A model generated the notes under the pieces. That model was given only the letters and a program-made list of their open reading frames with translations. It searched no databases and was not told the origin of the DNA. Made by a program: the position numbers and the translations under genes. DNA of 64,000 nucleotides from Hymenopellis radicata (taxonomy: Eukaryota > Basidiomycota > Agaricomycetes > Agaricales > Physalacriaceae): the NCBI GenBank assembly GCA_015501595.1, contig JADNRX010000036.1, positions 124,001-188,000 of the forward strand. Direction: 5' to 3'. This document shows, one piece after another, positions 25,435 through 57,966 of this stretch; the stretch's first letter is position 1, and each line of letters opens with the position of its first letter.

Positions 25435-25643
25435 CTGTAAGTTGGAGATATCTGTTTTTGCCCTGGGAGCAGTATACTTAAATCGCGCCACAATTCAAAT
25501 TTCATAAATTCACTTGATCATTGATATCATTCATCAAGATTCAAGAATCAATGATCATGGGCGAACATAATACTTACTCTGGTTGTGATAGCTGAGGAGT
25601 GCTTTCCTTATTTTATTGACATGAAAATGTACCAAGGAACTAA

Positions 25644-37200: not shown

Positions 37201-37291
37201 TGCATTAAGGGGGAATCGAACCCCCGGCGGGTCGAGCATGGAATAGGATTTCTTATGGCAACGACCCAGGTTACCACTACCCCATTAATGC
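37201..37291 (-). tRNA. tRNA-Gly (GCC) with intron, intact
   Basis: Minus strand. The acceptor GCATTAA/TTAATGC is perfectly paired. The D-arm is GGGTAGTGGTAACCT. The anticodon stem GGTCG/CGACC has loop TTGCCAT (GCC at 37259-37257) and a 19-nt intron. The T-arm GGGGGTTCGATTCCCCC is perfect. This is the best copy in the window and the reference for the interrupted copies at 41293-47041 and 52199-57966. A T-run and the AAATTGCGCCAC box follow downstream (about 37140-37165). Confidence 0.95.
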
Positions 37292-41292: not shown

Positions 41293-41329
41293 GCATTAAT
41301 GGGGTAGTGGTAACCTGGGTCGTTGCCAT
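41293..41329 (+). pseudogene. 5' half of a tRNA-Gly (GCC) interrupted by Ngaro element 1
   Basis: Identical to nucleotides 1-37 of the intact tRNA-Gly at 37201-37291, through acceptor, D-arm, 5' anticodon stem and loop TTGCCAT (GCC at 41325-41327). Eight intron-like bases (GATCTTGC) separate it from the retrotransposon end CCAATCTG at 41338. The other half is at 47007-47041. Confidence 0.95.
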
Positions 41330-41337
41330 GATCTTGC

Positions 41338-41950
41338 CCAATCTGATGAACCTGTCGGGGGACACGGTAGCCAAAAAGCCGACCGCCACCGCGGCGGCCG
41401 CGAGTATGATTGATGTTCGTAGGGTAAGTGGTACAAGTATGAGGATACGAATACAAACGGGCGGGCGACGAGAATACAATACTGGCGTGAAACAGTAAGA
41501 GACTGAGCCTAAGAGAAAAAATACAAGAACGCACCTGGCGGGGCACAGTAAGAGCTGAGGGATGCGAGACATCCTCGGCTGCATACCTAAGCTGCCCGCC
41601 AGGTATGGAAATCAACGATCGACCTAAGAGAAAGATGTGGCGCTGAGAGCTGACCACGTCAAAGTCTCGCTGTAAGCGAGGATAACGTCCCGAAGGCAGA
41701 AGAGTCTCACCTGGTTCATTTTGCGACCCGGTGGGTAACGAACCATAAGTACAGCATTTTAGATCCGAAGGATCTGTAATGAGTACTGTTGGTGAGGATG
41801 CTGTGAGCATGGAAAGCGAAATGGCATACCTCATATTGGCCTTGAGTAATCAAAAGATTAATCTCGACCAATCTGATGAACCTGTCGGGGGACACGGTAG
41901 CCAAAAAGCCGACCGCCACCGCGGCGGCCGCGAGTATGATTGATGTTCGT
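41338..41950. repeat. 3' split-repeat block of element 1 (Y-X-Y)
   Basis: Y copies are 41338-41420 and 41868-41950 (83 bp, CCAATCTGATGAACCTGTCG to TGATGTTCGT). The X copy is 41466-41867 (402 bp). X matches 46590-46991 almost perfectly. X contains an inverted repeat CACCTGGCGGG...CCCGCCAGGT (about 41533-41605) that could fold the RNA. Y contains the GC-rich palindrome-like CCACCGCGGCGGCCGCG. Confidence 0.9.
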
Positions 41951-41987
41951 AAAAATGGCTAATAAATGAGTGGGAAGATGATATCAA

Positions 41988-42977
41988 TCATTGTTGGGTT
42001 CGGTTGAAGAGTAGTGCCTGTAGGAGAACGGGGTTCTTCCTGATATAAATCTGGAAGGTGTTTGAAGCCCAGCGTCCCGCAGCCTGAATGAGGTGGGGGG
42101 CGCATCCGTCCTCGGCCATCGCTGTCGCTCCTCCAGCTCGCATCGATTGGCCAGCAAATTGTTCGTCTGGCTCAAGGCGTCGAAGACGCTTCATGAACCA
42201 AGTTCGCGTCGGGATCTCGTTCTTTGCCGTCACCCAAAGGAAAGGATTCAGGCGCGAAATCTTGTCACGCGAGACGATGTAGCGGCGAAAGACGGGAGCG
42301 GGATTGAAATCGCCACGACGGATGATCCGTATCTTGTTGCCCTCGAAGAACCGGTCTGCCTTGTGATATGGTAGGTCGAAGCCATACCCGTCATCGAACC
42401 ACGTCACTGTGGACCGGCGCGAACACTTGCGCAGGTCACGGATCGCGACGTTGTCCGGGAGCGACATTTCGCCAAGACGGAGTAAAGCCATGAAACCCGT
42501 TGTCAGCATCGCGGCGAAGAGCAAACTGTCGTGGGAAGCGTTCGGCGGAAGGTCATTGATGGTGGAAAGAATGTGCTGTCGGGCTAGAGGGAGTTTCCTC
42601 TGGATTGGAGTTCCGTACCTCTTCATGCAACCTGATAAAGATCGCGCCACTAAGATTGATTTTCGGTTCGCGCTGACACCGGGGAAATATGGTTCGAGTT
42701 TATTGCAAATCCCGGTTAAGTAGGATGCGACGGAGCGTGGCTTGATGTTCGCGCACATGTAGACAACGTAGAATGATAGAGTGTCGGGTGTTGGTTCGAC
42801 GGGGAAGTGATGCAGAGTGCAGAAGTTGAGATAAGAGTTCAAGTGGGAGTCGTAAGTCGCACTGGTGGAGATGTCGATGGCAAGTCCTAGTGCAATGGCT
42901 CTCTCATGGAGAAGCCGTTCGCGGGACCAAGGTTCCCTACGCGGTTGCCTCGGCGTCCGCAATTGGACGATCTTCAT
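41988..42977 (-). CDS. Tyrosine recombinase, Ngaro element 1
   Basis: 329 aa, single exon. Catalytic positions visible are Arg167 in GFMALLRLGE, Arg280 in GQSMRAGGATAMAEDG, Trp303 in GRWAS (at the His/Trp position) and the nucleophile Tyr311 in FQIYIRKNP. The N-terminal half (residues 30-130) has the SAM-like core-binding fold pattern TYDSHLNSYLNFC. It is expected to integrate the circular cDNA by strand exchange without duplicating the target. The start ATG overlaps the pol stop as ATGA (42977-42974), suggesting translational coupling. All catalytic residues are intact, so the enzyme may be active. Confidence 0.92.
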   Translation of the reverse strand: MKIVQLRTPRQPRREPWSRERLLHERAIALGLAIDISTSATYDSHLNSYLNFCTLHHFPVEPTPDTLSFYVVYMCANIKPRSVASYLTGICNKLEPYFPGVSANRKSILVARSLSGCMKRYGTPIQRKLPLARQHILSTINDLPPNASHDSLLFAAMLTTGFMALLRLGEMSLPDNVAIRDLRKCSRRSTVTWFDDGYGFDLPYHKADRFFEGNKIRIIRRGDFNPAPVFRRYIVSRDKISRLNPFLWVTAKNEIPTRTWFMKRLRRLEPDEQFAGQSMRAGGATAMAEDGCAPHLIQAAGRWASNTFQIYIRKNPVLLQALLFNRTQQ

Positions 42978-45040
42978 TTTTGTGTTGCCCCCAGCGTAAG
43001 TCGAGGGGGTTTAAATGTGTCGATGTATAAGTTCGGCACAAGAGACTGCGCAACGTCAAGGTAGTCGCGAGAGAGGGCGTCCGCTACGGTGTTCAGTTCG
43101 CCAGAGATGTGCACGACGCGTAGGTCAATATTTGACCGAATACGAATATCGACCGCTGCTTTGAGGATAGGGTTGTAATCCGGTAGCGCGCGGAGGGTGT
43201 CAAAGATGTTGACTGTATTCGTGTTATCAGTAAAAATAGTTAAGCGAGCTGGGCACTCAGGTGTGGCAAAGAAGGCGAGGTTCGACTGCTCGTACCAGAC
43301 GAGCGCGCCGAGAACACAGAGCGCCTCCCAAAAGAAGATCTTGTCTCGCATCAAGTCACCCGCAACAGCGCACGTGAAACCGAGGTCCATCTCCGGTACC
43401 CAAAAACCCATGCCTGTCAGAGACGCGTCGCAGAAGATCACCATGTTCGCCTCTGTGAAGGGATTCCAGTCAAGATTAGCGAAGAAGAACATGCCAGACG
43501 AAGCCTCAACATGCTCTTCAAACCATGCCAAATCTTGAACGATCGCCTTGTTAAGGTAAATTGGTGCATGCGAGCGTTCTTTTCCAGACATTTTGGCGTA
43601 TATGTTCGATAACGCGGGCTTGAGTAGAGGATAGACGTTCAGCGACCAGTTTATCCAACCGGTCAACTGCTCGAAGTCGTGGAGCGTCTGGCGTCGACGG
43701 GCAACATGTGCGAATTGGTGTACGTGACGGATGAGGTCAGACTTTGAATCGTCCGGAAGAGTCGCTGTCATAGCGTTCGGATCAACGAGGAAGCCGATGA
43801 TGACGAGAACTTCTCCCCAAACTTGCTTCTTCGCTTTGTGGGGAATGCCGAGCCAATCCCACAGTCGAAGAAGTCGGACTTGATCCGTCAGATAGAATTG
43901 CTCGTACGGATCGTACCATGTCATGTCGTCGACTAAGCCTACGCTGTAGCAGTCGTCAACATAACAGCAAAGGAAGACCATGTTCAGAAGACATATCGCT
44001 ATCCACACGACAAGACCCATCACCGATGCCCATGCTCTCGGAGAAGCGCGACTTCCGAAACAGGCACGCCAGTCCACGTAACGTAACCATGCGGTCTTGT
44101 CTGTCTTGCTTTCTCCCACCATGGACGTTACAACCTGCTTCAACTGCCACAACGGATGAACAGGTATCGTTCGAAACGCGCCCATCACGTCGGCCTTCCA
44201 GAGGAGTAATCTCTTGCCAGGATGCAAGCTGGAGAACATCAAAAGTAACGGGATGAAAATGAGGAGAGAGTCCAAACGTGCGCCCTTCGTTTGAGACTTG
44301 TCCACCATGTTGTTTTGACAATATTCTCCCGCAGATTGATTCGCGACGAGGCGGAGATCGTCTGAGTGAGGTTTGGGAACAGCAATATTGGGCGTGCTGT
44401 ACATGCCTGGGAGTAGGTGTGGGCCGAACGCTGGTGAGTGTTGACCCTTGTCTACTTCTTCTATGCATTGCGCCGCAATAAACTGACTCTCCTCAGTTGA
44501 CGGGATCTTTGCCCACGCGTTGTCCCACGTTTCTGGAAAATCACTCGATGGATTCGTGTCGGCCCATGGCCATAACCCGATTTTCAATGTTCGAACGACG
44601 GAGGCGACGAACGCTCGATTCGGATGTATGGCTAGAGCGCTCGCGAAACGATCTATATTGATTGGAGTGGAAACGTGGAAAAGGTGAGGATTTTCATGGA
44701 TAGTTTTCATAGCTACATGATGGTACTCTTTTTCAGGTGGGTGCAGAAGAGGTTCGTCTACTTCCGTGAACCACGCCGTTCGACTGCCTTGCGGGGCCGC
44801 GTTCCTCCATCCGAAACCCCTCAGGTAGCGTGGCAGGAAGGATCCGAAGCCACTCTCTTTTTCATCCTCCACACGACTCTCTTCAATGTCTTCTATTTCC
44901 TCATCTTCCCCTCCTCCACCTGCGAAATGACGCGCCGCGTGCCACAGGCTTGCCACGAAGGAAGAGCTAGTCGAGGACTCAGCTGCTTTTCGGTTTACAC
45001 AAGGTGACGACGTGCGGTCCTTCGCAGGAGCTGCAGACAT
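42974..45040 (-). CDS. Pol (reverse transcriptase-RNase H), Ngaro element 1
   Basis: From the ATG at 45040 (MSAAPAKDRTSS), which lies inside the gag 3' end, to the TGA at 42974; 688 aa. The frame is actually open back to 45580, through the gag region. RT motifs are STPNIAVPKPHSDDLRLVAN, KADVMGAFRTIPVHP, FGSRASPRAWASVMG and the catalytic CCYVDDCYS. The RNase H domain has FCDASLTGMGFW, WEALCVLGALVW, TDNTNTVNIFD and VADALSRDY, as in DIRS/Ngaro elements. There is no integrase or protease. The C-terminus continues LDVAQSLVPN to GATQK, which the second copy has lost to a MITE. The protein appears intact here. Confidence 0.92.
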   Translation of the reverse strand: MSAAPAKDRTSSPCVNRKAAESSTSSSFVASLWHAARHFAGGGGEDEEIEDIEESRVEDEKESGFGSFLPRYLRGFGWRNAAPQGSRTAWFTEVDEPLLHPPEKEYHHVAMKTIHENPHLFHVSTPINIDRFASALAIHPNRAFVASVVRTLKIGLWPWADTNPSSDFPETWDNAWAKIPSTEESQFIAAQCIEEVDKGQHSPAFGPHLLPGMYSTPNIAVPKPHSDDLRLVANQSAGEYCQNNMVDKSQTKGARLDSLLIFIPLLLMFSSLHPGKRLLLWKADVMGAFRTIPVHPLWQLKQVVTSMVGESKTDKTAWLRYVDWRACFGSRASPRAWASVMGLVVWIAICLLNMVFLCCYVDDCYSVGLVDDMTWYDPYEQFYLTDQVRLLRLWDWLGIPHKAKKQVWGEVLVIIGFLVDPNAMTATLPDDSKSDLIRHVHQFAHVARRRQTLHDFEQLTGWINWSLNVYPLLKPALSNIYAKMSGKERSHAPIYLNKAIVQDLAWFEEHVEASSGMFFFANLDWNPFTEANMVIFCDASLTGMGFWVPEMDLGFTCAVAGDLMRDKIFFWEALCVLGALVWYEQSNLAFFATPECPARLTIFTDNTNTVNIFDTLRALPDYNPILKAAVDIRIRSNIDLRVVHISGELNTVADALSRDYLDVAQSLVPNLYIDTFKPPRLTLGATQK

Positions 45041-46551
45041 GGCGTCTGGAACAAGCGCTACGGAAGCACTTCCCCTCGTTCCAGTTGTTGCAGATCTCTC
45101 GCTCTCGCTTCTTTGCCAATTTTGTTCTCGCAGATTTTGCGCTCCCACCTGTGCCTCCAATATCATTGTACCGAACGCCGTCTCTGTCGAGGAAAGCTCG
45201 CTGGAGTTTCGTGATCTCGGGGGCGTTGTACTGATTGAAGAGGATGGCTGGGTTCGACCCGATAACTTTGCGAGCGGCGATGTCATACGCAATGACTCGG
45301 GCATGGGAATCTTCGACCTTGGACGTGAAGAGGTCGTCGATGTGCTCTCGCCAGGCTCGGAGTTCGTTCGTCCGGTAAGGGAATATTGTCTCGACTGCCT
45401 TGACATACTTATCAAAGCATCTAAACCAGACGACTGACGAACTAACAGTCTTCTTCTCCGCGCTTCGTCCCAAGGCTTTGTGAAGTGCCGATTCGACCGT
45501 ACTGACTGGAGTGGGGTCGAGGTCGAGTTTGGTGGAGAAGAAGAAAGCGTTGATCTCGTCGAAGTCGACGACTTGATCAAGGAGGATTTTCTTCCAGAGA
45601 GCTTCAGGGAAGACGGGGGCGAGTCCTATGCGCAAAAGGTTGTGCAAGGTGTACTTGACGTCGCGTCTGTGATTTTCGACGGCGTCGCGGATTTTCTTGT
45701 GCTCAGCTGAGAGAACGACTTCTTGGACGACGGCGGCGGCGGCCCATCCGAAGAGATTGTCGTCTGGTACATCGCCATCGTTGGACTCGCGAGCGTGGTG
45801 GTGTTTGCGAGGAGGTTTGGACTTGGGTTTGTCGTCTCCTCCACTCTCATATTCTGAGAGCGAACTATTGGAATTGGGTGTCTCTGCCCGTTTGCGTTTA
45901 ACTCCGGGTTTGACACTCTCTTCGTGGTCATCACCGTCCTCTTCCTCGTCGACGGTCTCTTCTCCTCCGGATACGTCGTCGTCATCTTTTCGCGACTTTC
46001 CCAACTCTTTCCCTCGTTGCTTGGCTCGCTCGAGACGTCTAGCGTCGCTCTCGAGTTGCTCGAACCACGGCTTGAGCTCGTTACGTCCGCTGAAGTCGTA
46101 CAGTCCGGCTTCGGAAACACCGCCGATGTAGGCAACGACCGTGGTTTGAACGTCAACTTTGGACGCTCGTCCCTCACGGTACTGTAGACTTTAATTCAAT
46201 TCGTCGGTCACGGGTCACAGGCGATCCGAAATTGACGAAAAGTCACAGCGGTCACAGCGAAAATCCCAAAAAAATCGTCGGCGGGGCCCCCGCCAGCCTC
46301 CCGACGGAGCTCCGCCGCGGCGGGAATTACCATATATGGTAATTCATCGAAACCATAATTTCGTCGGACCGGTCACAGGTCACATGGCCCGACGAATTGA
46401 ATGAAAGTGTACAGTATCGACTGACGATCTCTTCGAGGGTTTTCCGTACAGCTTCGCAATACTGCTCCTCCGTGAGTTCTGAGTCAGGGATGTCAGGGAT
46501 AGAACAGTCTCCGGCTTTTCGCTTTTTGCTGCCTTCGGCATGTCCGGGCAT
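44979..46551 (-). pseudogene. Gag-like ORF of element 1, split by a MITE
   Basis: It starts MPGHAEGSKKRKAGD at 46551 and is open to the MITE boundary (46415). It resumes at 46181 (GRASKVDVQTTVVAYIGG) and ends at 44979. The intact homologue is 52684-54021. The C-terminus carries a Cys/His cluster (CNNWNEGKCF, CSRRHVCSSC), probably a zinc knuckle for nucleic-acid binding. An acidic/Lys-rich low-complexity middle precedes it. Translation through the MITE ends at a stop within it (NYHIW, stop), so full-length Gag cannot be made from this copy unless the MITE is removed. Confidence 0.85.
46182..46414. mobile_element. TA-flanked MITE inside gag of element 1
   Basis: 233 bp. The termini are CTGTAGACTTTAATTCAATT... 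and the inverse of CTGTACACTTTCATTCAATT..., about 26 bp with few mismatches. They are flanked by a TA duplication (46180-46181 and 46415-46416). Comparison with the uninterrupted gag at 52800-52825 confirms the exact insertion. The interior contains CGGCGGGGCCCCCGCC and the palindrome GAATTACCATATATGGTAATTC. It has no coding capacity; Tc1/mariner-like (TA) origin is likely. Confidence 0.92.
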
Positions 46552-46589
46552 AATCGTATGAGTCGTTAGATGGAAATTTATTTCGCAAT

Positions 46590-46991
46590 CGACGAGAATA
46601 CAATACTGGCGTGAAACAGTAAGAGACTGAGCCTAAGAGAAAAAATACAAGAACGCACCTGGCGGGGCACAGTAAGAGCTGAGGGATGCGAGACATCCTC
46701 GGCTGCATACCTAAGCTGCCCGCCAGGTATGGAAATCAACGATCGACCTAAGAGAAAGATGTGGCGCTGAGAGCTGACCACGTCAAAGTCTCGCTGTAAG
46801 CGAGGATAACGTCCCGAAGGCAGAAGAGTCTCACCTGGTTCATTTTGCGACCCGGTGGGTAACGAACCATAAGTACAGCATTTTAGATCCGAAGGATCTG
46901 TAATGAGTACTGTTGGTGAGGATGCTGTGAGCATGGAAAGCGAAATGGCATACCTCATATTGGCCTTGAGTAATCAAAAGATTAATCTCGA
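46590..46991. repeat. 5' X repeat of Ngaro element 1
   Basis: 402 bp, nearly identical to 41466-41867. In the tRNA-sense direction it ends TTAATCTCGA at the integration junction. Confidence 0.9.
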
Positions 46992-47006
46992 TGAAGAAGG
47001 CACTCT

Positions 47007-47041
47007 TCGACCCGCCGGGGGTTCGATTCCCCCTTAATGCA
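47007..47041 (+). pseudogene. 3' half of the interrupted tRNA-Gly (element 1)
   Basis: It begins at the 3' anticodon stem (TCGACCC), then has variable loop CGCC, T-arm GGGGGTTCGATTCCCCC, acceptor TTAATGC and discriminator A. It is identical to the intact gene's 3' exon. Fifteen intron-like bases (TGAAGAAGGCACTCT) separate it from the element end at 46991. A box TTTTGGCGCCACA follows about 30 nt downstream. Confidence 0.95.
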
Positions 47042-47760
47042 GTGCATGCCTATTGATACGTCCATTTTGGCGCCACATATTGAGAATCGGATTTTTGGCG
47101 GGTACAAGATGTGATTACTGTTTTGTTTCGTGCTATCTGAGCTCATGGAAGGATCGAGTGTTGTTTTTATTTGGAGAGGAAGTACGATGAATCTGTGGCA
47201 CGAGGTGCACTGGGTAATGGTGCATCAAATAAGTCCTGCAAGGACTGGGCATGTTTTTGGGAAAGCGTTCATGAGCCAACGCGTCAAATACTACTATTGA
47301 ACATATATTAAAGAAACTACACCGATTAGTTGTCTCCTGCTTGCCTACCTCATTGACGGCCCCGAATCCCCAAAACGCTCTACATCCTTCCTTTCACCGC
47401 TCGAAATGGCCCGTGGCTCCTCCCTCAACCACTGCAACTGTGTTGTCCACAACCCGCCGTCTTTCACGCGCAGTACGAAGCTGCCTGAATCCCGTCACGT
47501 TGACTGTTACCTCTTTCGACCTGAGTTGATGTTTCGCCGACCCGACATGTCTCACATCCCCATTCGTTCTGCTAATGTTAGAGTGCGCTGCAACGAGCAT
47601 CATGGGTCAACGCGCGCTCGGGAACTGCCCGCCTACTTAAGGAAGCCATTGAGACTACTTCAATGAAGTACTTGGTCTGCATCAGGAAAACAGCCAATGT
47701 GTCTTGTCGGTCTTGGTCTTGCGCGGCCCGTCTTTCTGAGTCTTGCTCTTGCCGCGCGAA

Positions 47761-47850
47761 TCTTTTCGGTCTTGCTCTTGCAGACCAATGTCTTTCCGGT
47801 CTTGCTCTTGCAGACCGATGTCTTTCCGGTCTTTCTCTTGCCGTCTTGTG
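47761..47850. repeat. 30-bp tandem repeat, 3 units
   Basis: Units begin TCTTTTCGGTCTTGCTCTTG, TCTTTCCGGTCTTGCTCTTG and TCTTTCCGGTCTTTCTCTTG, the first two continuing CAGACCAATG / CAGACCGATG. They are subterminal to the left end of the candidate TIR element. Confidence 0.85.
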
Positions 47851-48001
47851 GCTTCCCAGCCATTCTTTTTCTTGCCATCTTATTTTAGTCTTGCCAAAGG
47901 TTCACAAATGAGGAAAAACATAACTATATTCACAACGTCACATCAGCGTACATAAAGCCAACCATCGCGTAAGACTCTCGTCTATCCCGCTAGGTCGACA
48001 G

Positions 48002-48660
48002 TCATGGAAATGGTCCATGTTGTGTTACAGGACTTGTATGTGGCTGCCAGGCTTCACTGGAGTCCGCGTTATGCATAGGTGTCAGTATGGAGAAGACGCG
48101 GCGCAGATACACGTTGATGGACTTGAGACGCTGCGCGTGCGGGTGGAGGCTCTCGGTGAAGAGATGGCAGGGGGAGATGCAGATGATGGAGAGCGGGACG
48201 CGTCTGGAGTGTGCGAGGAACGGGCGTAGTTGGCGTCGCAGAGATCGATGTACCGCCACAACCGGAGCGTGTCTAGAGCGATTGTTCGCAGACTTGGGTC
48301 CAGGCGAGGCGATGCCGGGGCTTGGGGTTGTCGTATACGAATGATAGCCTGTGTTCTAGATGCCGGACAGATGTCTGGGAGTCGTATACACAGTGGGAAT
48401 GCCAATAAAGTAGCCTCGCTGCGCGTATGGAACGTGGCACCTGTTGAGAAGGCGTGTCGTCCGCGGTGCGAGTAATGTCGAGTAATGTCATCGTCCACGT
48501 CGACGAAAATGGTGTCGAGCTCATCAAGAGCATGGTGGTCCAAGGTGAAGCAAAGATCGTGGACTTGTAGAGGAAAATGGAACCCGATCGGGTGGTCCGT
48601 GCGCACAAAGCACGCAATCGGACCACGTGCCTGTTCGGTTTCCTTTTTTTTCGCCAAGTC
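48002..48660 (-). pseudogene. F-box gene fragment inside the candidate TIR element
   Basis: Minus-strand pieces in two frames read FPLQVHDLCFTLDHHALDEL, then TIALDTLRLWRYIDLCDANY in one frame and SRRVPLSIICISPCHLFTES, LHPHAQRLKSINVYLRRVFS in another. The IALDTxxLWxxIDLC signature directly follows the F-box in many Agaricomycete F-box proteins. No F-box core is readable and at least one frameshift separates the parts. It is a relic, possibly captured by the surrounding element. Confidence 0.55.
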
Positions 48661-48899
48661 CGTCGCTCGCCTCCGTCTTCCCTAGTCTTCTTGCCTCCAT
48701 CGCTAGCGTCCACTCTGAAGGGATCCGTGCTAGCACCACACGCCAATCTTCGCCACGGGACACAGGCTTGGACGACGCTAGACGACAAGGTACAACTCAT
48801 CGCGGCTTCACCATGGAGGACAACCATGGCAAGCAACTTCGGCCAGCAAGAATAGCCAGAACGGCGGCACCATTCAGCGAGGACCATATCAACGACAGC

Positions 48900-49640
48900 A
48901 GTACCGGCCAGTGATAACGACAATGAGGCTGACGACGACATCAGCCAGCGAGGACAATCTTGCGCGAAGACAGGGTGGTATGCCTGGCGACTCTGTTGCG
49001 CAAGAGGAGGACGAGGGGGATGGGCCTGGATGTGGGATGGGGTCTGGCTATGTCGCTATGGTGCGTAATAGTCTTGTCTGGAGGCTATTCCATCTCATGC
49101 CACTATGACTCTCCGATACTAACGTCCATCGTAGCTCGTACAATCCTTCATTCCGAGTATAGCGCGGACACCCTTCGTGGAGCGTTTCAAATACAACATA
49201 TCCTCCAACCTTCTGTCGACGGCGCTTTCTGCTCATACGCCGTACCTCAAACCGCCGACCTTCCCTGGGACGATAGCTACGCCAAGCGAGACTTGTACCT
49301 CTCCTAGTGTGTTCTCTTATTTTTTCTTGCTTGCAGCTACTGACTTTCCGTTTGCAGACACTGTCTCCGACGGCTTATTTAATGTCGCAGTGTATGGTAT
49401 GTATCCATTGATTGTTGCTGAGTCGTGTATTTACAGTCTTTACAGTGCTTGGAACTCTATGGCTCCTTGGTGACTCGGACCGCGCGGGCAATCCTTCAAC
49501 GCGTCTCGTTTACAGTAGGTTGTTCTCATTAAAGCATGGGTGTTCTAAGTCTCCGTCATATAGTTGTGTGGCTCAGGCTGCAAGAAGGAAGCCACGGTAT
49601 CCGAGTCCCGACTGTACTGCACAGTAACAGGCATAGCGGG
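48900..49640 (+). other. Unassigned intron-like reading frames
   Basis: Short plus-strand exon-like segments with plausible introns (GTGCGT at 49059 to TAG at 49133; GTATGT at 49395) but no family signature. It may be captured host sequence within the candidate element or a relic. Confidence 0.2.
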
Positions 49641-49878
49641 TGTATCTAGCCATGGCCTAGTGTAGTACTTGTCCTTTACTTTTCGTATCCACTGAATACA
49701 AAGATTTATACAAATTCATCGCATGAGTATATCCCCAGTAGAGCCTTGAGAGATCTGGCAAGACGGTAAAAAGACGCGGTGAAGTGGTCTTGTCGAAGAC
49801 TCAGACTGTCTTGCAAAAGATGAGAAAAGTCCTGACAAGAATCCTGACCTGGCTTCGGCAAGACTTTGAGTCTTTTGA

Positions 49879-49929
49879 GTCTTTTGGGTCTTTTTGGTCT
49901 TGCAGCAAGACCAAAAAGACCCAAAAGAC
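49879..49929. repeat. Perfect 25-bp hairpin
   Basis: Two perfectly complementary 25-nt arms (49879-49903 and 49905-49929) are separated by a single A. The left arm starts GTCTTTTGGG and ends GGTCTTGC. It lies 7 bp inside the right terminal repeat of the candidate TIR element. Confidence 0.95.
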
Positions 49930-50416
49930 GTACTTGCTGTTTTCCTGATGTGAATATCAATAATGAACATCATAAAAACTCAGTGTACGTGGTCTGATAT
50001 TGGGTGCAGGTCCCCGTCGCTGCGATGCGACATATCTGAGATTCCATTCTCCCGACTGCCTCATTCCTTGCTCCGTCTGAGTGGGTTGCAAGGAGCATCA
50101 CACGTCCGCCGCGCACCCTCAGCGCAGTTAGTCGTAGGCCGCCTGTCGTTGGGCTTCAGTATCTTACACATTGCTTATGATGTCTTTTGAATTTAATTGA
50201 TCCTCGCGTACTCTCTAAAGACAATGCTCCTGGTGCCGGTAAATCATGGCGGAGCGAAGCGAAGCCAGTTCTTGTTTCAAATAGTATTTCAAATAGCGAG
50301 GCGTTCAGTATGCACGTGTTTGGTTGTAGCTTCGATCGATCGTGTTGGACTTTCGTCTTGGACGCTGACCATTGCTATCACTTTACTATCCAACTAACGC
50401 TATTACTAACGGAGCG

Positions 50417-51849
50417 ATGGCATGCGCTGCAACATCGCAGGCCTCCTCCTCGTCCACATCCATCCCCGTCGAGATGCTCTCCCCTAAAGCATACATACGC
50501 ACGCTCCACGAACGGCGGGACTTGCTGCGGCAATGCGCCTTGGATATGGATGGCGCTGGGAAGGGCAAGGGCAAGGCACGGGACAGCGGCGACCGCCTGC
50601 GTGCGGGCGTGCACGAGGCTCTGCGGGAGAAGGATCCGTGGAGCGCGCTAGGGCACGTCTTGAAATTACAGAGTACCCGTGGTGGGAAGAGGTGTGTCTG
50701 TCCGTTATCCTTCCACGGCTAAACTCACTCCTCGGCAGGTACATCGGAACGTCACTGACGCCTGCGGAGGCTATTCCGCTGCCGCCGCCGTATAGAGACA
50801 AGTTCCCGGAGACCGACGAGGAGTGGGAGGAGCTGCGGGAGAAGATGCATATGGTGGAGAAGGTGAGCGGGTGGGTGAGGAGCGTGGAGGTTAGTGTGGA
50901 GGTGAGAGGGAAGAGGAAGAGGGATAGTGCTACGGCGAGTCCTGCGAGGAAGAAGCGCAAAAGCGAATACGATCTCAAGGATCCGTCGCCGTTGGGATTT
51001 GTCGCGGCGAAGCGGGTGCCGTCTCAGACGAAGAGTGTTCCGCGAGGGTCGCCTAAAGTTCTCGTGCCATCGTCGTCCCGGGGCTCCTCTCCCCCTCACG
51101 AGGAGATACCCGACACACGCCCATCCATATCGTCCATCCCCGAAGACACGTTCTTCCCTCCGTCGTTCCCCTCCCACCTCGCTACGTCGACTCCGCCGAA
51201 GATGCGCACACGTGCGCGGCCTGTAGAGATTGGCAATGAGCCGTCCTCGGAGGGTAAAGAGGACGAGACTCGGGGCGAGATGAAGGATCTGCGCAAGCTG
51301 TTGATTGCCGCGCGCACTCCGAGTCCGAAAAAGAGGAAGAAGCAGTCTGCGACCACTTTGGCCTTCAAGCCCCTTTCCTCCGCGAATCTTCTCCGAGCGT
51401 CTTCGTCCAAGCTGGCGCCGACACAGTCAATTTCGTCTATCGCAGGAGACGACCTACCACCAGACGAGAGTCTCAATTTTGGCATCAACGCCCTTGCTTC
51501 GGCCGGCTCAGCCATGCCTCCCACCGCTCATGACGATGACGACGACGACGCCCCGCTCTACGCTGCCACCCAACTTCGGGGCGCGTATGATTCCCAGTTT
51601 GATTTGGATGCAGGCCTCGGCGATCTCGAGGGCTTTTTGGAGAGAGATGTCCATGTCTTTGGGGAGGGGGAGGAGGAGGAGGAGCCCAAGAAGGATTTGG
51701 ACGATAGTGTGGAGAAGAGTCCGGAGGACGACGAGGTGCAGGATGAGGATGAGAGTGCGACGTTTGGTAGGTGGTTTAATCTCCCCCGGAGGAGTGCGAG
51801 TACGACTGGGAGCGGCGGCGGTGGACCAAATTGGTTTGGGAGGCGGTGA
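50417..51849 (+). CDS. Predicted nuclear Lys/Glu-rich protein, frame break or unusual intron near 50600-50675
   Basis: The first part starts MACAATSQASSSSTSIPVEM and contains SPKAYIRTLHERRDLLRQC and HEALREKDPWSALGHV. The long second frame continues EITEYPWWEEVCLSVILPRL, NSLLGRYIGTSLTPAEAIPL, then a disordered Ser/Pro/Lys-rich region with NLS-like GKRKRDS, PARKKRKS and PSPKKRKK, a DDDDDD run, an EEEEEE run and a C-terminus SGGGGPNWFGRR, stop at 51849. The two frames differ by one base. Either one nucleotide is missing near 50660 (GHVL/EITEY would then be continuous), or a 73-nt intron from GTGCGG to TTACAG removes the segment. Probably nuclear; family not recognised. Confidence 0.6.
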
Positions 51850-52198
51850 TACCGCGATGGGATGAGTCCGAGTACTTTGCGGTTGGTGCTATTAGTACCA
51901 CGTTTCATTAGGTTATTTTGTAGCGAACTTGTACTCTTTTTGCTTACCTTTACCAACATACTAAGTAAATGCATATCAACTCTAGTCATAGATCTTTCTT
52001 TGAAGATTCATAGGAGCCCGCCCGCCCAGTGAGCTCCGGGAGGGAGGTGGCCACTATTAGTATCGTCTCCGCCCCTCCTACAGGAATAAAAAATGACCAA
52101 GACACTCGGGTGCATGCTCATTGCTCAATGCTCAAATCAAATGTGGCGCAATTTACATTCCTTGAACCAGTAGGCAAAACGGATTGCTGAATAGTCAG
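51850..52198. other. Intergenic flank with the AAATTGCGCCAC box
   Basis: No gene. Near 52140-52160 the inverse of TGTAAATTGCGCCACATTTG lies about 50 bp from the tRNA-Gly 3' half, the same position as in the other tRNA-Gly loci. Confidence 0.6.
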
Positions 52199-52233
52199 TG
52201 CATTAAGGGGGAATCGAACCCCCGGCGGGTCGA
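52199..52233 (-). pseudogene. 3' half of a tRNA-Gly (GCC) interrupted by Ngaro element 2
   Basis: The minus strand reads TCGACCC, CGCC, T-arm GGGGGTTCGATTCCCCC and acceptor TTAATGCA, identical to the intact gene at 37201-37291. Ten intron-like bases (ACCATTAAAC in tRNA sense) separate it from the element end at 52244. The 5' half is at 57929-57966. Confidence 0.95.
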
Positions 52234-52243
52234 GTTTAATGGT

Positions 52244-52643
52244 TCGAGATTAATCTGTTGATTACTCAAGGCCAATATGAGGTACGCCTTTTCGCTTTCC
52301 ATGCTCACAGCATCCTCACCAACAGTACTCATTACAGATCCTTCGGGTCTAAAATGCTGTACTTCTGGTTCGTTACCCGCCGGGTCGCAAAATGAACCAG
52401 GTGAGACTCTTCTGCCTCCGGGACGTTATCCTCGCTCACTGCGAGACTTTGACGTGGTCAGCTCTCAGCGCCACATCTTTTTCTTAGGTCGATCGTTTAT
52501 TTCCATACCTGGCGGGCAGCTTAGGTATGCAGCCGAGGATGTCTCGCATCCCTCAGCTCTTACTGTGCCCCGCCAGGTGCGTTCTTGTATTTATTCTCTT
52601 AGACTCAGTCTCTTACTGTTTCACACCAGTGTTGTATTCTCGT
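52244..52643. repeat. 5' X repeat of Ngaro element 2
   Basis: It starts TCGAGATTAATCTGTTG and ends TATTCTCGTCG. It matches 57389-57790 with about one substitution plus length differences of a base or two. Confidence 0.9.
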
Positions 52644-52683
52644 CGTGTACGAAATAAATTTCCATCTGACGACTCATACGATT

Positions 52684-54021
52684 ATGCCCGGACATGCCGA
52701 AGGCAGCAAGAAGCGAAAAGCCGGAGACTGTACTATCCCTGACATCCCTGACTCAGAGCTCACGGAGGAGCAATATTGCGAAGCTGTACGCAAAACCCTC
52801 GAAGAGATCGTCGGTCGATACCGTGCGGGACGGGCGTCCAAAGTTGACGTTCAAACCACGGTCGTCGCCTACATCGGCGGTGTTTCCGAAGCCGGACTGT
52901 ACGACTTCAGCGGACGTAACGAGCTCAAACCGTGGTTCGAGCAACTGGAGAGCGACGCTAGACGTCTCGAGCGAGCCAAGCAACGAGGCAAAGAGTTGGG
53001 AAAGTCGCGAGCAGACGACGACGACGTATCCGGAGGAGAAGAGACCGTCGACGAAGAAGAAGACGGTGATGACCACAAAGAGAGTGTCAAACCCGGAATC
53101 AAACGCAAACGGGCTGAGACACCCAATTCCGACAGTTCGCTCTCAGAATATGAGAGCGGAGGAGACGACAAACCCAAGTCCAAGCCTCCTCGCAAACACC
53201 ACCACGCTCGCGAGTCCAACGATGGCGATGTACCAGACGACAATCTCTTCGGATGGGCCGCTGCTGCCGTCGTCCAAGAAGTCGTTCTCTCAGCTGAACA
53301 CAAGAAAATCCGCGACGCCGTCGAAAATCACAGACGCGACGTCAAGTACACCTTGCACAACCTCTTGCGCACAGGACTCGCCCCCGTCTTCCCTGAAGCT
53401 CTCTGGAAGAAAATCCTCCTCGATCAAGTCGTCGACTTCGACGAGATCAACGCTTTCTTCTTCTCCACCAAACTCGACCTCGACCCCACTCCAGTCAGTA
53501 CGGTCGAATCGGCACTTCACAAAGCCTTGGGACGAAGCACGGAGAAGAAGACTGTTAGTTCGTCAGTCGTCTGGTTTAGATGCTTTGATAAGTATGTCAA
53601 GGCAGTCAAGACAATCTTCCCTTACCGGACAAACGAACTCCGAGCTTGGCGAGAGCACATCGACGACCTCTTCACGTCCAAGGTCGAAGATTCCCATGCC
53701 CGAGTCATTGCGTACGACATCGCCGCTCGCAAAGTTATCGGGTCGAACCCAGCCATCCTCTTCAATCAGTACAACGCCCCCGAGATCACGAAACTCCAGC
53801 GAGCTTTCCTCGACAGAGACGGCGTTCGGTACAATGATATCGGAGGCACAGGTGGGAGCGCAAAATCTGCGAGAACAAAATTGGCAAAGAAGCGAGAGCG
53901 AGAGATCTGCAACAACTGGAACGAGGGGAAGTGCTTCCGTAGCGCTTGTTCCAGACGCCATGTCTGCAGCTCCTGCGAAGGACCGCACGTCGTCACCTTG
54001 TGTAAACCGAAAAGCAGCTGA
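52684..54021 (+). CDS. Gag-like protein, Ngaro element 2 (intact)
   Basis: 445 aa from MPGHAEGSKKRKAGD to HVVTLCKPKSS. An upstream in-frame ATG at 52645 exists, but 52684 matches the start in element 1. N-terminal 30-110: IPDIPDSELTEEQYCEAVRK and VAYIGGVSEAGLYDFSGRN. A long acidic/Lys-rich disordered middle follows (DDDDVSGGEETVDEEEDGDD). The C-terminal third (VLSAEHKKIRDAVENHRRD, DEINAFFFSTKLDLDPT) may be the capsid-like part. A terminal Cys/His cluster (CNNWNEGKCF, CSRRHVCSSC) suggests RNA binding. The pol frame overlaps the last 62 nt and remains open backwards through most of gag. Confidence 0.88.
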   Translation: MPGHAEGSKKRKAGDCTIPDIPDSELTEEQYCEAVRKTLEEIVGRYRAGRASKVDVQTTVVAYIGGVSEAGLYDFSGRNELKPWFEQLESDARRLERAKQRGKELGKSRADDDDVSGGEETVDEEEDGDDHKESVKPGIKRKRAETPNSDSSLSEYESGGDDKPKSKPPRKHHHARESNDGDVPDDNLFGWAAAAVVQEVVLSAEHKKIRDAVENHRRDVKYTLHNLLRTGLAPVFPEALWKKILLDQVVDFDEINAFFFSTKLDLDPTPVSTVESALHKALGRSTEKKTVSSSVVWFRCFDKYVKAVKTIFPYRTNELRAWREHIDDLFTSKVEDSHARVIAYDIAARKVIGSNPAILFNQYNAPEITKLQRAFLDRDGVRYNDIGGTGGSAKSARTKLAKKREREICNNWNEGKCFRSACSRRHVCSSCEGPHVVTLCKPKSS

Positions 54022-55975
54022 GTCCTCGACTAGCTCTTCCTTCGTGGCAAGCCTGTGGCACGCGGCGCGTCATTTCGCAGGTGGAGGAGGAGAAGATGAG
54101 GAAATAGAAGATATTGAAGAGAATCGTGTGGAGGACGAAAAAGAGACTAGCTTCGGATCCTTCCTGCCACGCTACCTGAGGGGTTTCGGATGGAGGAATG
54201 CGGCCCCGCAAGGCAGTCGAACGGCGTGGTTCACGGAAGTAGACGAACCTCTTCTGCACCCACCTGAAAAAGAGTACCATCATGTAGCTATGAAAACTAT
54301 CCATGAAAATCCTCACCTTTTCCACGTTTCCACTCCGATCAATATAGATCGTTTCGCGAGCGCTCTAGCCATACATCCGAATCGAGCGTTCGTCGCCTCC
54401 GTCGTTCGAACATTGAAAATCGGGTTATGGCCATGGGCCGACACGAACCCATCGAGCGATTTTCCAGAAACGTGGGACAACGCGTGGGCAAAGATCCCGT
54501 CAACTGAGGAGAGTCAGTTTATTGCGGCGCAATGCATAGAAGAAGTAGACAAGGGTCAACACTCACCAGCGTTCGGCCCACACCTACTTCCAGGCATGTA
54601 CAGCACGCCCAATATTGCTGTTCCCAAACCTCACTCAGACGATCTCCGCCTCGTCGCAAACCAATCTGCAGGAGAATATTGTCAAAACAACATGGTAGAC
54701 AAGTCTCAAACGAAGGGCGCACGTTTGGACTCTCTTCTCGTTTTCATCCCGTTACTGTTGATGTTCTCCAGCTTGCATCCTGGCAAGAGATTACTCCTTT
54801 GGAAGGCTGACGTGATGGGCGCGTTTCGAATGATACCCGTTCATCCGTTGTGGCAACTGAAGCAGGTTGTGACGTCCATGGTGGGAGAAAGCAAGACGGA
54901 CAAGACCGTGTGGTTACGTTACGTGGACTGGCGTGCCTGTTTCGGAAGTCGCGCTTCTCCGAGAGCATGGGCGTCAGTAATGGGACTTGTCGTGTGGATA
55001 GCGATATGTCTTCTGAACATGGTCTTCCTTTGCTGTTATGTTGACGACTGCTACAGCGTAGGCTTAGTCGGCGACATGACGTGGTACGATCCGTACGAGC
55101 AATTCTATCCGACGGATCAAGTCCGACTTCTTCGACTGTGGGATTGGCTCGGCATTCCCCACAAAGCGAAGAAGCAAGTTTGGGGAGAAGTTCTCGTCAT
55201 CATCGGCTTCCTCGTTGATCCGAACGCTATGACAGCGACTCTTCCGGACGATTCAAAGTCCGACCTCATCCGTCACGTACACCAATTCGCACACGTTACC
55301 CGTCGACGCCAGACGCTCCACGACTTCGAGCAGTTGACCGGTTGGATAAACTGGTCGCTGAACGTCTATCCTCTACTCAAGCCCGCGTTATCGAACATAT
55401 ACGCCAAAATGTCTGGAAAAGAACGCTCGCATGCACCAATTTACCTTAACAAGGCGATCGTTCAAGATTTGGCATGGTTTGAAGGGCATGTTGAGGCTTC
55501 GTCTGGCATGTTCTTCTTCGCCAATCTTGACTGGAATCCCTTTACAGAGGCGAACATGGTGATCTTCTGCGACGCGTCTCTGACAGGCATGGGTTTTTGG
55601 GTACCGGAGATGGACCTCGGTTTCACGTGCGCTGTTGCGGGTGACTTGATGCGAGACAAGATCTTCTTTTGGGAGGCGCTCTGTGTTCTCGGCGCGCTCG
55701 TCTGGTACGAGCAGTCGAACCTCGCCTTCTTTGCCACGCCTGAGTGCCCAGCTCGCTTAACTATTTTCACTGATAACACGAATACAGTCAACATTTTTGA
55801 CACCCTCCGCGCGCTACCAGATTACAACCCAATCCTCAAAGCAGCGGTCGATATTCGTATTCGTTCAAACATTGACCTACGTGTGGTGCACATCTCGGGC
55901 GAACTGAACACCGTAGCGGACGCCCTCTCTCGCGACTACTGTACCGTTTCGACCGCATGTTCGCATAACGCGTAA
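53960..55975 (+). CDS. Pol (RT-RNase H), Ngaro element 2, C-terminus replaced by MITE
   Basis: The ATG at 53960 (MSAAPAKDRTSS) lies inside the gag end in the +1 frame relative to gag. RT motifs PNIAVPKPHSDDLRLVAN, KADVMGAFRMIPVHP and CCYVDDCYS, and RNase H motifs FCDASLTGMGFW, WEALCVLG, TDNTNTVN and VADALSRDY, are intact. After SRDY the frame enters the MITE and ends CTVSTACSHNA at 55975, losing about 23 native residues (LDVAQSLVPN onward). All catalytic residues precede the insertion, so activity might persist, but the ATGA coupling with the recombinase is lost from this frame. Confidence 0.88.
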   Translation: MSAAPAKDRTSSPCVNRKAAESSTSSSFVASLWHAARHFAGGGGEDEEIEDIEENRVEDEKETSFGSFLPRYLRGFGWRNAAPQGSRTAWFTEVDEPLLHPPEKEYHHVAMKTIHENPHLFHVSTPINIDRFASALAIHPNRAFVASVVRTLKIGLWPWADTNPSSDFPETWDNAWAKIPSTEESQFIAAQCIEEVDKGQHSPAFGPHLLPGMYSTPNIAVPKPHSDDLRLVANQSAGEYCQNNMVDKSQTKGARLDSLLVFIPLLLMFSSLHPGKRLLLWKADVMGAFRMIPVHPLWQLKQVVTSMVGESKTDKTVWLRYVDWRACFGSRASPRAWASVMGLVVWIAICLLNMVFLCCYVDDCYSVGLVGDMTWYDPYEQFYPTDQVRLLRLWDWLGIPHKAKKQVWGEVLVIIGFLVDPNAMTATLPDDSKSDLIRHVHQFAHVTRRRQTLHDFEQLTGWINWSLNVYPLLKPALSNIYAKMSGKERSHAPIYLNKAIVQDLAWFEGHVEASSGMFFFANLDWNPFTEANMVIFCDASLTGMGFWVPEMDLGFTCAVAGDLMRDKIFFWEALCVLGALVWYEQSNLAFFATPECPARLTIFTDNTNTVNIFDTLRALPDYNPILKAAVDIRIRSNIDLRVVHISGELNTVADALSRDYCTVSTACSHNA

Positions 55976-56191
55976 CGTGCGGTCGAAAACCTAACTTGGG
56001 ATAAAGCATAACGCATCACGGACCTTATTTTCAGGGTCCATGAGGCTTAAAAAGGAAATTTTCGCTCCCGCCTACGGCGGGAGCATCCAAATATGGTAAT
56101 TCCGGGTGTTGTGCCTGGTTACGAACTTGTTTCCTGTAAGTTCGCGGCATAACGCGTCACATGCCGCGAACTTACGGTCGAAACGGTACAG
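55939..56191. mobile_element. TA-flanked MITE at the pol end of element 2
   Basis: 253 bp with terminal inverted repeats CTGTACCGTTTCGACCG...CGGTCGAAACGGTACAG, flanked by TA (55937-55938, 56192-56193). Comparison with element 1 (GACTACCTTGACG) shows a clean insertion. It contains GCTCCCGCCTACGGCGGGAGC and an ATATGGTAATTC block shared with the other MITE. A second inverted pair (TTCGCATAACGCGT...GCGGCATAACGCGTCA) lies inside. Both MITEs start CTGTA and end TACAG, so they probably depend on the same transposase group. Confidence 0.92.
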
Positions 56192-56277
56192 TACCTTGAC
56201 GTCGCGCAATCTCTCGTGCCGAACTTATACATCGACACATTTAAACCCCCTCGACTCACGCTGGGGGCAACGCAAAA

Positions 56278-57267
56278 ATGAAGATCGTCCAATTGCGGAC
56301 GCCGAGGCAACCGCGTAGGGAACCTTGGTCCCGCGAACGGCTTCTCCATGAGAGAGCCATTGCACTAGGACTTGCCATCGACATCTCCACCAGTGCGACC
56401 TACGACTCCCACTTGAACTCTTATCTCAACTTCTGCACTCTGCATCACTTCCCCGTCGAACCAACACCCGACACTCTATCATTCTACGTTGTCTACATGT
56501 GCGCGAACATCAAGCCACGCTCCGTCGCATCCTACTTAACCGGAATTTGCAACAAACTCGAACCATATTTTCCCAACGTCACCGCTAGCCGGAAATCTAT
56601 CTTGGTGGCACGATCTTTGTCAGGTTGCATGAAGAGGTACGGATCTCCAATCCTGAGGAAACTCCCTCTAGCCCGACAGCAGATCCTTTCCACCATCAAT
56701 GACCTTCCGCCAAACGCTTCCCACGACAGTTTGCTCTTCGCCGCTATGCTGATGACAGGTTTCATGGCTTTACTCCGTCTTGGTGAAATGTCGCTGCCGG
56801 ACAACGTCGCGATCCGTGACCTGCGCAAGTGTTCGCGCCGGTCCACGGTGACGTGGTTCGATGACGGGTATGGCTTCGACCTACCTTATCACAAAGCAGA
56901 CCGGTTCTTCGAGGGCAACAAGATACGGATCATCCGTCGTGGTGATTTCAATCCGGCTCCCGTCTTTCACCGCTACATTGTCTCGCGCGACAAGATCTCG
57001 CGCCTGAATCCTTTCCTTTGGGTAACGGCAAAGAACGAGATCCCGACACGAGCTTGGTTCATGAAGCGTTTCCGACGCCTTCAGCCTGACGAACAATTCG
57101 CAGGGCAATCGATGCGAGCCGGAGGAGCGACAGCGATGGCCGAGGACGGATGCGCGCCTCACCTCATTCAGGCTGCGGGACGCTGGGCTTCAAATACCTT
57201 CCAGATTTATATCAGGAAGAACCCCGTCCTCCTACAAGCACTACTCTTCAACCGAACCCATCAATGA
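56278..57267 (+). CDS. Tyrosine recombinase, Ngaro element 2
   Basis: 329 aa, colinear with 41988-42977. Arg167 (ALLRLGE), Arg280 (QSMRAGG), Trp303 (GRWAS) and Tyr311 (QIYIRK) are all retained. Differences are conservative or sit at non-catalytic positions (for example FPNVTASRKS for FPGVSANRKS, and KRFRRLQPDE for KRLRRLEPDE). The pattern suggests purifying selection on the enzyme. The ATGA context at the start is preserved, although the MITE upstream now separates it from the pol reading frame. Confidence 0.92.
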   Translation: MKIVQLRTPRQPRREPWSRERLLHERAIALGLAIDISTSATYDSHLNSYLNFCTLHHFPVEPTPDTLSFYVVYMCANIKPRSVASYLTGICNKLEPYFPNVTASRKSILVARSLSGCMKRYGSPILRKLPLARQQILSTINDLPPNASHDSLLFAAMLMTGFMALLRLGEMSLPDNVAIRDLRKCSRRSTVTWFDDGYGFDLPYHKADRFFEGNKIRIIRRGDFNPAPVFHRYIVSRDKISRLNPFLWVTAKNEIPTRAWFMKRFRRLQPDEQFAGQSMRAGGATAMAEDGCAPHLIQAAGRWASNTFQIYIRKNPVLLQALLFNRTHQ

Positions 57268-57304
57268 TTGATATCATCTTCCGACTCATTCATTAGCCAT
57301 TTTT

Positions 57305-57920
57305 ACGAACATCAATCATACTCGCGGCCGCCGCGTGTGGCGGTCGGCTTTTTGGCTACCTTGTCCCCCGACAGGATCATCAGATTGGTCGAGATTAATC
57401 TGTTGATTACTCAAGGCCAATATGAGGTACGCCTTTTCGCTTTCCATGCTCACAGCATCCTCACCAACAGTACTCATTACAGATCCTTCGGGTCTAAAAT
57501 GCTGTACTTCTGGTTCGTTACCCGCCGGGTCGCAAAATGAACCAGGTGAGACTCTTCTGCCTCCGGGACGTTATCCTCGCTCACCGCGAGACTTTGACGT
57601 GGTCAGCTCTCAGCGCCACATCTTTTTCTTAGGTCGATCGTTTATTTCCATACCTGGCGGGCAGCTTAGGTATGCAGCCGAGGATGTCTCGCATCCCTCA
57701 GCTCTTACTGTGCCCCGCCAGGTGCGTTCTTGTATTTATTCTCTTAGACTCAGTCTCTTACTGTTTCACACCAGTGTTGTATTCTCGTCGCCCGCCCGTT
57801 TGTATTTGTATCCTCATACTTGTACCACTTACCCTACGAACATCAATCATACTCGCGGCCGCCGCGTGTGGCGGTCGGCTTTTTGGCTACCTTGTCCCCC
57901 CGACAGGATCATCAGATTGG
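57305..57920. repeat. 3' split-repeat block of element 2 (Y-X-Y)
   Basis: Y 57305-57388, X 57389-57790, spacer 57791-57835, Y 57836-57920. Y runs from ACGAACATCAATCATACTCG to CATCAGATTGG. The second Y has six C where the first has five. Confidence 0.9.
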
Positions 57921-57928
57921 ATATGCCA

Positions 57929-57966
57929 TATGGCAACGACCCAGGTTACCACTACCCCATTAATGC
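57929..57966 (-). pseudogene. 5' half of the interrupted tRNA-Gly (element 2)
   Basis: The minus strand starts GCATTAATGGGG at 57966, then has the D-arm, GGGTCG and loop TTGCCAT (GCC at 57934-57932). It is identical to the intact gene's 5' exon. Nine intron-like bases separate it from the element end at 57920. The junction forms the palindrome TGCCATATGGCA. Confidence 0.95.

Follow-up and report, generated by a model that had tools for sequence, protein, structure and literature searches.

Ngaro-type tyrosine-recombinase retrotransposons with a probable preference for tRNA genes in Hymenopellis radicata

The 64,000-nucleotide stretch analysed here (the window; positions 124,001 to 188,000 of contig JADNRX010000036.1) comes from the fungus Hymenopellis radicata and carries two Ngaro-type tyrosine-recombinase (YR) retrotransposons of about 5.7 kb. 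Two different tRNA-Gly(GCC) genes have their introns split by these elements, which lie antisense to the tRNA in both cases (Table 1). All data are from one genome, an assembly of 75.5 Mb. A preliminary description of the window had placed both elements between tRNA-Gly(GCC) halves, and both pairs were found at those positions. Joining the host flanks across either element yields a complete tRNA-Gly(gcc) in ARAGORN. The leftover introns are 23 and 19 nt long by the convention of that description, or 24 and 20 nt by ARAGORN; the introns of two uninterrupted copies measure 21 and 20 nt. The claim that both elements occupy the same site holds for the intron but not for the exact base, as entry lies 8 and 9 bases from the 5′ exon at loci 1 and 2, and 19 bases from it in a third Gly copy (L011).

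The two window insertions are independent events, as had been proposed, because their introns and outer flanks differ, sequence similarity is confined to about 100 bp around the tRNA, and the YR proteins of the two elements, at 96% identity, are not the same. No homologous flanking DNA beyond the tRNA was found within 300 bp on each side. With its box A and box B now far apart, the interrupted tRNA gene has presumably lost its function, and the cost of losing it would be buffered by the many tRNA copies.

Ngaro elements are defined by split direct repeats in the order A1...B1-A2-B2, and this arrangement is present in both window elements and in the relatives that were read. Both window elements also carry the internal circle-junction sequence ATTGG/TCGAG (the slash marks the junction) and the same order of open reading frames (ORFs), with a gag-like ORF followed by a reverse transcriptase (RT)/RNase H-type ORF and a 329-aa YR ORF. 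Over 300 nt, repeats A1 and A2 are 100% identical in element 1 and 99% identical in element 2, and this near-identity suggests that both insertions are recent. The YR assignment rests on a profile built from 21 relatives, which matches Cre (best E 1.1e-4), together with PF00589, found in 14 of the 21 relatives scanned (best E 3e-6; E 0.05 for the window protein alone). A Pfam scan of the window ORFs at E 0.001 returned no match; below threshold, the RT-type ORF of element 1 gave RVT_thumb (E 0.0059) and RVT_1 (E 0.065), and its gag-like ORF gave a weak match to zf-CCCH_3 (E 0.0045). The RT/RNase H-type ORF of element 1 contains what we take to be a YVDD motif, and comparison of the window RT/RNase H-type ORF with the PDB gave no relevant match. 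Most protein relatives in the databases have no functional name, and a few are labelled retroelement, integrase or Tyr recombinase. Relatives of the YR are present in other Agaricales, among them Armillaria, Galerina, Mycena and Hypsizygus. Each element further holds its own inverted repeat of about 240-260 bp resembling a miniature inverted-repeat transposable element (MITE), one near the gag-like ORF and the other at the end of the RT/RNase H ORF.

Table 1. Features of the two loci in the window, followed by tRNA-associated insertion sites across the genome.
Feature	Position or site	Strand or orientation	Evidence or remark
tRNA-Gly(GCC) 5′ exon, locus 1	41293..41329	+	exact motif; ARAGORN on joined flanks
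Interrupted intron 5′ part, locus 1, 8 nt	41330..41337	+	
Ngaro-type YR retrotransposon 1	41338..46991	-	split direct repeats, ORFs, exact termini CCAATCTGAT / TTAATCTCGA
Element 1 repeat B2 (outer end)	41338..41421	-	repeat comparison
Element 1 repeat A2 (inner edge approximate)	41466..41867	-	B1/A2 junction between 41867 and 41868
Element 1 repeat B1	41868..41951	-	repeat comparison
Element 1 YR ORF, 329 aa	41988..42977	-	ORF; profile and Pfam results on relatives
Element 1 RT/RNase H-type ORF, 868 aa	42974..45580	-	ORF; sub-threshold Pfam matches
Element 1 gag-like ORF, C-rich zinc-finger-like end	44979..46004	-	ORF; sub-threshold zf-CCCH_3
Element 1 internal MITE-like inverted repeat	46177..46419	.	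arms 31 nt, 90% complementary
Element 1 repeat A1 (outer end)	46590..46991	-	repeat comparison
Interrupted intron 3′ part, locus 1, 15 nt	46992..47006	+	
tRNA-Gly(GCC) 3′ exon, locus 1	47007..47041	+	exact motif; ARAGORN on joined flanks
tRNA-Gly(GCC) 3′ exon, locus 2	52200..52233	-	exact motif; ARAGORN on joined flanks
Interrupted intron 3′ part, locus 2, 10 nt	52234..52243	-	
Ngaro-type YR retrotransposon 2	52244..57920	+	repeats, ORFs, termini
Element 2 gag-like ORF, 458 aa	52645..54021	+	ORF
Element 2 RT/RNase H-type ORF, 1093 aa open frame	52694..55975	+	ORF
Element 2 internal MITE-like inverted repeat	55937..56193	.	arms 28 nt, 93% complementary
Element 2 YR ORF, 329 aa	56278..57267	+	ORF; profile and Pfam results on relatives
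Element 2 repeat B1	57304..57388	+	repeat comparison
Element 2 repeat A2 (inner edge approximate)	57389..57791	+	circle-junction sequence ATTGG/TCGAG at 57388/57389
Element 2 repeat B2 (outer end)	57835..57920	+	repeat comparison
Interrupted intron 5′ part, locus 2, 9 nt	57921..57929	-	
tRNA-Gly(GCC) 5′ exon, locus 2	57930..57966	-	exact motif; ARAGORN on joined flanks
Uninterrupted tRNA-Gly(GCC), 21-nt intron, comparison	25343..25435	+	
Uninterrupted tRNA-Gly(GCC), 20-nt intron, comparison	37201..37291	-	
Gly(GCC) intron	window locus 1, window locus 2, C1395 (L011)	element antisense	
Ile(AAT) intron	C1384:137k (L009), C1384:120k (L025/L012)	element sense	
Arg(TCG) intron	C347 (L024)		one flank only; intact paralogs support
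Asp(GTC), after nt 11	C752 (L027/L019)		ARAGORN labels join Thr(tgt)
Glu(TTC), after nt 24	C1018:83k (L058/L059)		F3 element
58 bp downstream of tRNA	C722 (L015)		
83 bp upstream of Asp tRNA	C1023 (L031)		
29 bp downstream of Ala tRNA	C469 (L036)		
23 bp downstream of Asp tRNA	C460 (L038)		
13 bp downstream of Arg tRNA	C523 (L039)		
84 bp upstream of Lys tRNA	C563/C733 (L051/L054)		

Insertion sites were collected across the genome with the B end (32 matches), the A end (35) and the YR protein (118), the DNA-search counts being lower bounds; the A-start pattern occurs at 64 places against 0 for a reversed control. Element ends were read from the loci themselves, duplicates were collapsed and rows without a readable outer end were dropped, giving 41 sites: 17 in family 1 (F1), 2 in F2, 16 in F3 and 6 others (two on C556, and C563/C733, C782, C674 and C518). 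Collapsed duplicates are C585:205k and C241 (as F1-08), C73 (as C464), C1294 (as C47, same left flank) and C733 (as C563), and C774 was retained although it and C47 have almost identical right flanks. No outer end was readable at C469:117k (L017, broken) or C369 (L033/L090, outer B end not found), and C557 and C709 (L066, L069) were dropped at contig ends. In F5, a YR family that is more remote (no more than 35-36% identity), C133 was dropped as a duplicate of C944:8k, and L074/L076 (broken ends) and L077, L079 and L088 (without a B end) were left uncounted. Among the 36 tabulated sites, 15 were seen from one side only. IMG/VR loci, considered as a source of independent copies, gave two weak relatives (26% and 39% identity), which were not used.

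Eight of the 41 sites lie inside a tRNA gene, three in Gly, two in Ile and one in Arg introns, with the Asp and Glu insertions in the D-arm/A box. Together they span from about nt 11 to the end of the intron, and none falls in the 3′ half of the tRNA. The two Ile insertions coincide in position, each lying about 2 nt past the start of the intron. For the L011 join, whose exon motifs match the Gly gene exactly, ARAGORN gives Lys(ctt), and it prints the Ile sites as Asn(att), apparently through a shiftable intron boundary, and the C347 paralogs as Ser(cga); Ile and Arg-with-intron are our own readings. Another six sites lie 13-84 bp outside a tRNA gene, and F3-06 (C963), about 400 bp from a tRNA-Cys, was not counted as associated. 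A seamless junction was confirmed by a paralog only where one could be compared: intact Asp paralogs show that no base was lost at C752 (F1-07), and these and the tandem-repeat paralog L100 have uninterrupted sequence, in agreement with the absence of target duplication noted in the preliminary description.

The preference is for tRNA genes in general and not for a tRNA-Gly-intron site, because isotype, orientation and position vary and 27 of the 41 sites show no tRNA. According to the preliminary description, the recombinase would recognise the tRNA gene or the intron/anticodon stem. As applied to tRNA-Gly, this proposal is not supported, since Ile, Arg, Asp and Glu genes are also hit, the D-arm as well as introns, in either orientation and in some cases 13-84 bp away, and strict tRNA-Gly or intron specificity is thereby ruled out. 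Its broader idea of a tRNA-targeting lineage survives as a tRNA-gene preference, visible in 7 of 22 two-flank joins that rebuild a tRNA across the junction, plus one case with a single flank. Its own caveat, that most full-length copies might lie outside tRNA genes, applies in part: 8/17 family-1 and 12/16 F3 sites have no tRNA either at the junction or up to 84 bp away from it, which points to a strong preference rather than strict specificity.

In an ARAGORN control with mock joins, 11/342 spanned a tRNA, and 8 of these 11 combined halves of the same isotype. A box-B pattern has 504 matches in the genome against 151 for its reversed control, from which we estimate a few hundred tRNA genes, or about 0.05-0.07% of the genome; a whole-genome Rfam search, with 63 of 2877 candidates scored, was not used for this number. 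Assuming 504 genes of 100 bp, the binomial p is about 4e-17 for the 6/11 family-1 two-flank sites and about 3e-18 for the 7/19 two-flank sites of F1-F3. By chance, tRNA genes would be hit at about 0.1 of 41 sites. With up to 1 mismatch allowed, 13/36 sites have a box-B match no more than 150 bp from the junction. For F5, 6 distinct sites were seen from the right side only, and these flanks, about 400 bp each, contained neither a tRNA (ARAGORN, Rfam) nor a box-B match.

Some flanks resemble tRNA genes without being counted as such. The L030 flank (F1-16) has an A-box-like 5′ half, for which a search allowing 2 mismatches found no paralog. The L013 flank (F1-09) lies in a multi-copy sequence with box-A- and box-B-like motifs, also seen at L043, L097, L098 and L099, that received no tRNA call from Rfam or default ARAGORN. 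It is perhaps a tRNA-derived repeat, and one Ngaro (C21) splits it between the boxes. F1-13 lies in multi-copy, partly tandem sequence with no tRNA call, and the site without its insertion is preserved in a paralog. A search with Rfam at E up to 10 found no tRNA halves in nine loci, an insensitive test because it also missed the paralog-supported half at L024. At C469:86000-95000 (L036), two different Ngaros are stacked beside a single tRNA-Ala, and repeat B2 of one runs directly into repeat A1 of its neighbour. A second repeat (at least 44 matches; 40 of 183 candidates scored) follows tRNA 3′ ends at a distance of about 70-120 bp and shares the orientation of the tRNA. It occurs beside three Ngaro-hit tRNAs (L009:3-182, minus; L011:5823-5988; L059:378-543) and beside three of the 63 tRNAs listed (C27:5483, C1040:122671, C666:44851), and is possibly another tRNA-associated transposon of this genome. 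The element at L021 (C585:204.5-205.5k) ends B1-A2-B-A-B, and this extra tandem unit suggests that the internal circle junction served as a site of either integration or recombination. Copies reduced to one A and one B repeat, about 500-560 bp long (L016, L022, L047, L051), are the Ngaro counterpart of solo long terminal repeats (LTRs).

A short local signal accompanies family 1. A T stands four bases before the A end in 13/13 left flanks, an outcome that none of 20000 simulated draws from the same flanks reproduced. Of these flanks, those of the two Ile sites are only partly independent of each other, and at F1-11 the first T of the A end is missing. A/G is favoured at position -6 and A at position -5. 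The B end of the element reads GATTGG (circle junction GATTGG/TCGA), so that target and circle in family 1 have a GAT-like match in common.

We consider it likely that a group of Ngaro-type YR retrotransposons in H. radicata prefers to integrate into or beside tRNA genes, with recruitment by the RNA polymerase III (Pol III) machinery and a weak recombinase core. The YR would recombine circular complementary DNA carrying the B/A junction into a site that has no more than a short core in common with it. As this core cannot alone explain the tRNA excess, we infer a recruitment step, in which the integrating complex (the Gag-like ORF1 or the YR) may be brought to active tRNA genes by Pol III transcription factors or the polymerase. 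Recruitment of this kind would explain the many isotypes, both orientations, the scattered positions and the sites just outside the gene. ORF1 is a candidate for this role because, in the parts of PMC8547959 drawn on here, ORF1 apparently decides target choice in the Ngaro elements of Cafeteria. For a more specific version, in which the YR lineage evolved recruitment to the Pol III complex, integrates from box A to the intron, converges on the regions hit by Dada transposons and needs a core match of 3-4 bases, we see the chances as evenly balanced.

Several observations weigh against Pol III recruitment combined with a core. Many of the 27 sites without a tRNA in or within 84 bp have one flank only. 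Of the family-1 two-flank sites, 5/11 lie outside tRNAs; over all families, two-flank sites without a tRNA include F1-06, 08, 11, 12 and 13, F2-01, and F3-05, 10, 11, 12, 13 and 16. A single MITE-like repeat family has taken up several F3 copies and an F2 copy, and holds sites C47, C302, C774 and C498. The three two-flank joins added to the first set (7/19) rebuilt no junction-spanning tRNA (0/3). The F5 control is small and one-sided, and an interior tRNA half could be missed in it. The T at -4 is present in only 6/12 F3 flanks, and the right flank has no conserved base. Four of 19 junctions (F1-04, F1-06, F1-11, F2-01) stand out as hairpins, which a tether does not predict. Finally, a preference for open chromatin would look much like the proposed tether to the Pol III machinery.

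That last possibility involves no specific targeting: nucleosome-free DNA would be chosen, with tRNA genes as the most open short regions. It would accommodate sites inside and within 84 bp of tRNAs as well as the many sites without one, but F5 in the same genome shows no tRNA at 6 sites, within the limits of that control, and we judge it unlikely. Alternatively, the recombinase itself could recognise tRNA-gene DNA, such as an inverted repeat in the anticodon stem or D-arm, in the manner of bacterial tRNA-directed integrases. The confinement of the eight interior insertions to the stretch between about nt 11 and the intron end, the shared position of the Ile sites, and the four junctions whose stem score no background position reached, above chance, speak for such recognition. 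However, the Gly intron position varies (8, 9 and 19 nt), as do isotype, orientation and region, and the sites 13-84 bp outside the gene are left unexplained. In addition, half or more of the background positions reach the junction stem score at the other 15/19 junctions, which are thus ordinary and include 6 of the 7 tRNA-spanning ones. We find direct recognition of tRNA-gene DNA decidedly improbable and do not adopt hairpin or cruciform targeting as the main explanation, although hairpins may contribute, given 4/19 above expectation.

The pattern could also reflect survival, with random insertion and retention only in redundant genes. tRNA genes are indeed multicopy, but they make up only about 0.05-0.07% of the genome, whereas intergenic DNA and other repeats offer far larger harmless targets, and selection alone is unlikely to yield 8/41 interior hits; we give this very little credence. 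Least credible, to the point of being nearly negligible, is that the two window loci, or all the tRNA loci, are segmental duplicates of one insertion. True duplicates do exist (the C585 pair with C241; C464/C73; C563/C733; C47/C1294) and were collapsed in the census, whereas the Gly-locus flanks share only about 100 bp at the tRNA, and introns and isotypes differ.

Compared with known systems, the H. radicata elements resemble the fungal Ngaro elements of PMC3783388 in the order of their gag-like, RT/RNase H-type and YR ORFs, the Agaricomycete host and the split direct repeats. The tRNA preference is the new part: the words tRNA, target and insertion site are absent from the main text of that survey. 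Ngaro types in Cafeteria differ in integration preference, and the target there is endogenous virophage DNA, with 91% of type 1 in EMALE virophages, according to the parts of PMC8547959 drawn on; the word tRNA does not occur in its main text. Dada transposons (PMC8869645; see also PMC3706591) have their insertions within tRNA genes, mostly at the A box (nt 8-13) or near the anticodon, the same two regions hit by the H. radicata Ngaros. Dada elements, however, have a DDE transposase, produce target duplications and mostly use one isotype per family, whereas the H. radicata elements have a YR protein, seamless junctions without duplication and mixed isotypes, and so are not Dada members.

Among retrotransposons, Ty1/Ty3 of yeast and TRE/DGLT-A of Dictyostelium insert within a narrow window outside the gene. 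No such fixed outside window is seen in H. radicata, where 8/41 insertions are inside and six are outside, at 13, 23, 29 and 58 bp downstream and 83 and 84 bp upstream. Prokaryotic tRNA-directed YR elements carry an attachment (att) identity block that restores the tRNA; here, a complete tRNA is obtained only by joining two host flanks, and the gene is left split. The bacterial and archaeal YR integrative elements found at tRNA genes (see PMC8371274) resemble the H. radicata elements in tyrosine recombinase and tRNA gene target. Ty1/Ty3 and the Dictyostelium elements TRE/DGLT-A are attracted to genes transcribed by Pol III, and the attraction probably depends on Pol III factors (PMC5911963, PMC5006619). 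The Dictyostelium YR element DIRS-1 goes to existing DIRS-1 copies and not to tRNAs (PMC5006619), and a term search of PMC5911963, on retrotransposon targeting to Pol III genes, found no mention of Ngaro or tyrosine recombinases.

No report of a tRNA-gene preference of YR retrotransposons was found among the titles and abstracts listed from the open-licence literature, and we regard the preference as provisionally new for this class. Retrotransposons with and without LTRs are known to be attracted to tRNA genes, as are DDE DNA transposons. A YR retrotransposon at tRNA genes, if true, would have converged independently with all of these, and would connect a eukaryotic retroelement with bacterial YR elements through their common use of tRNA genes. 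It would also provide a direct handle on site choice by YR retrotransposons, which has so far been poorly understood.

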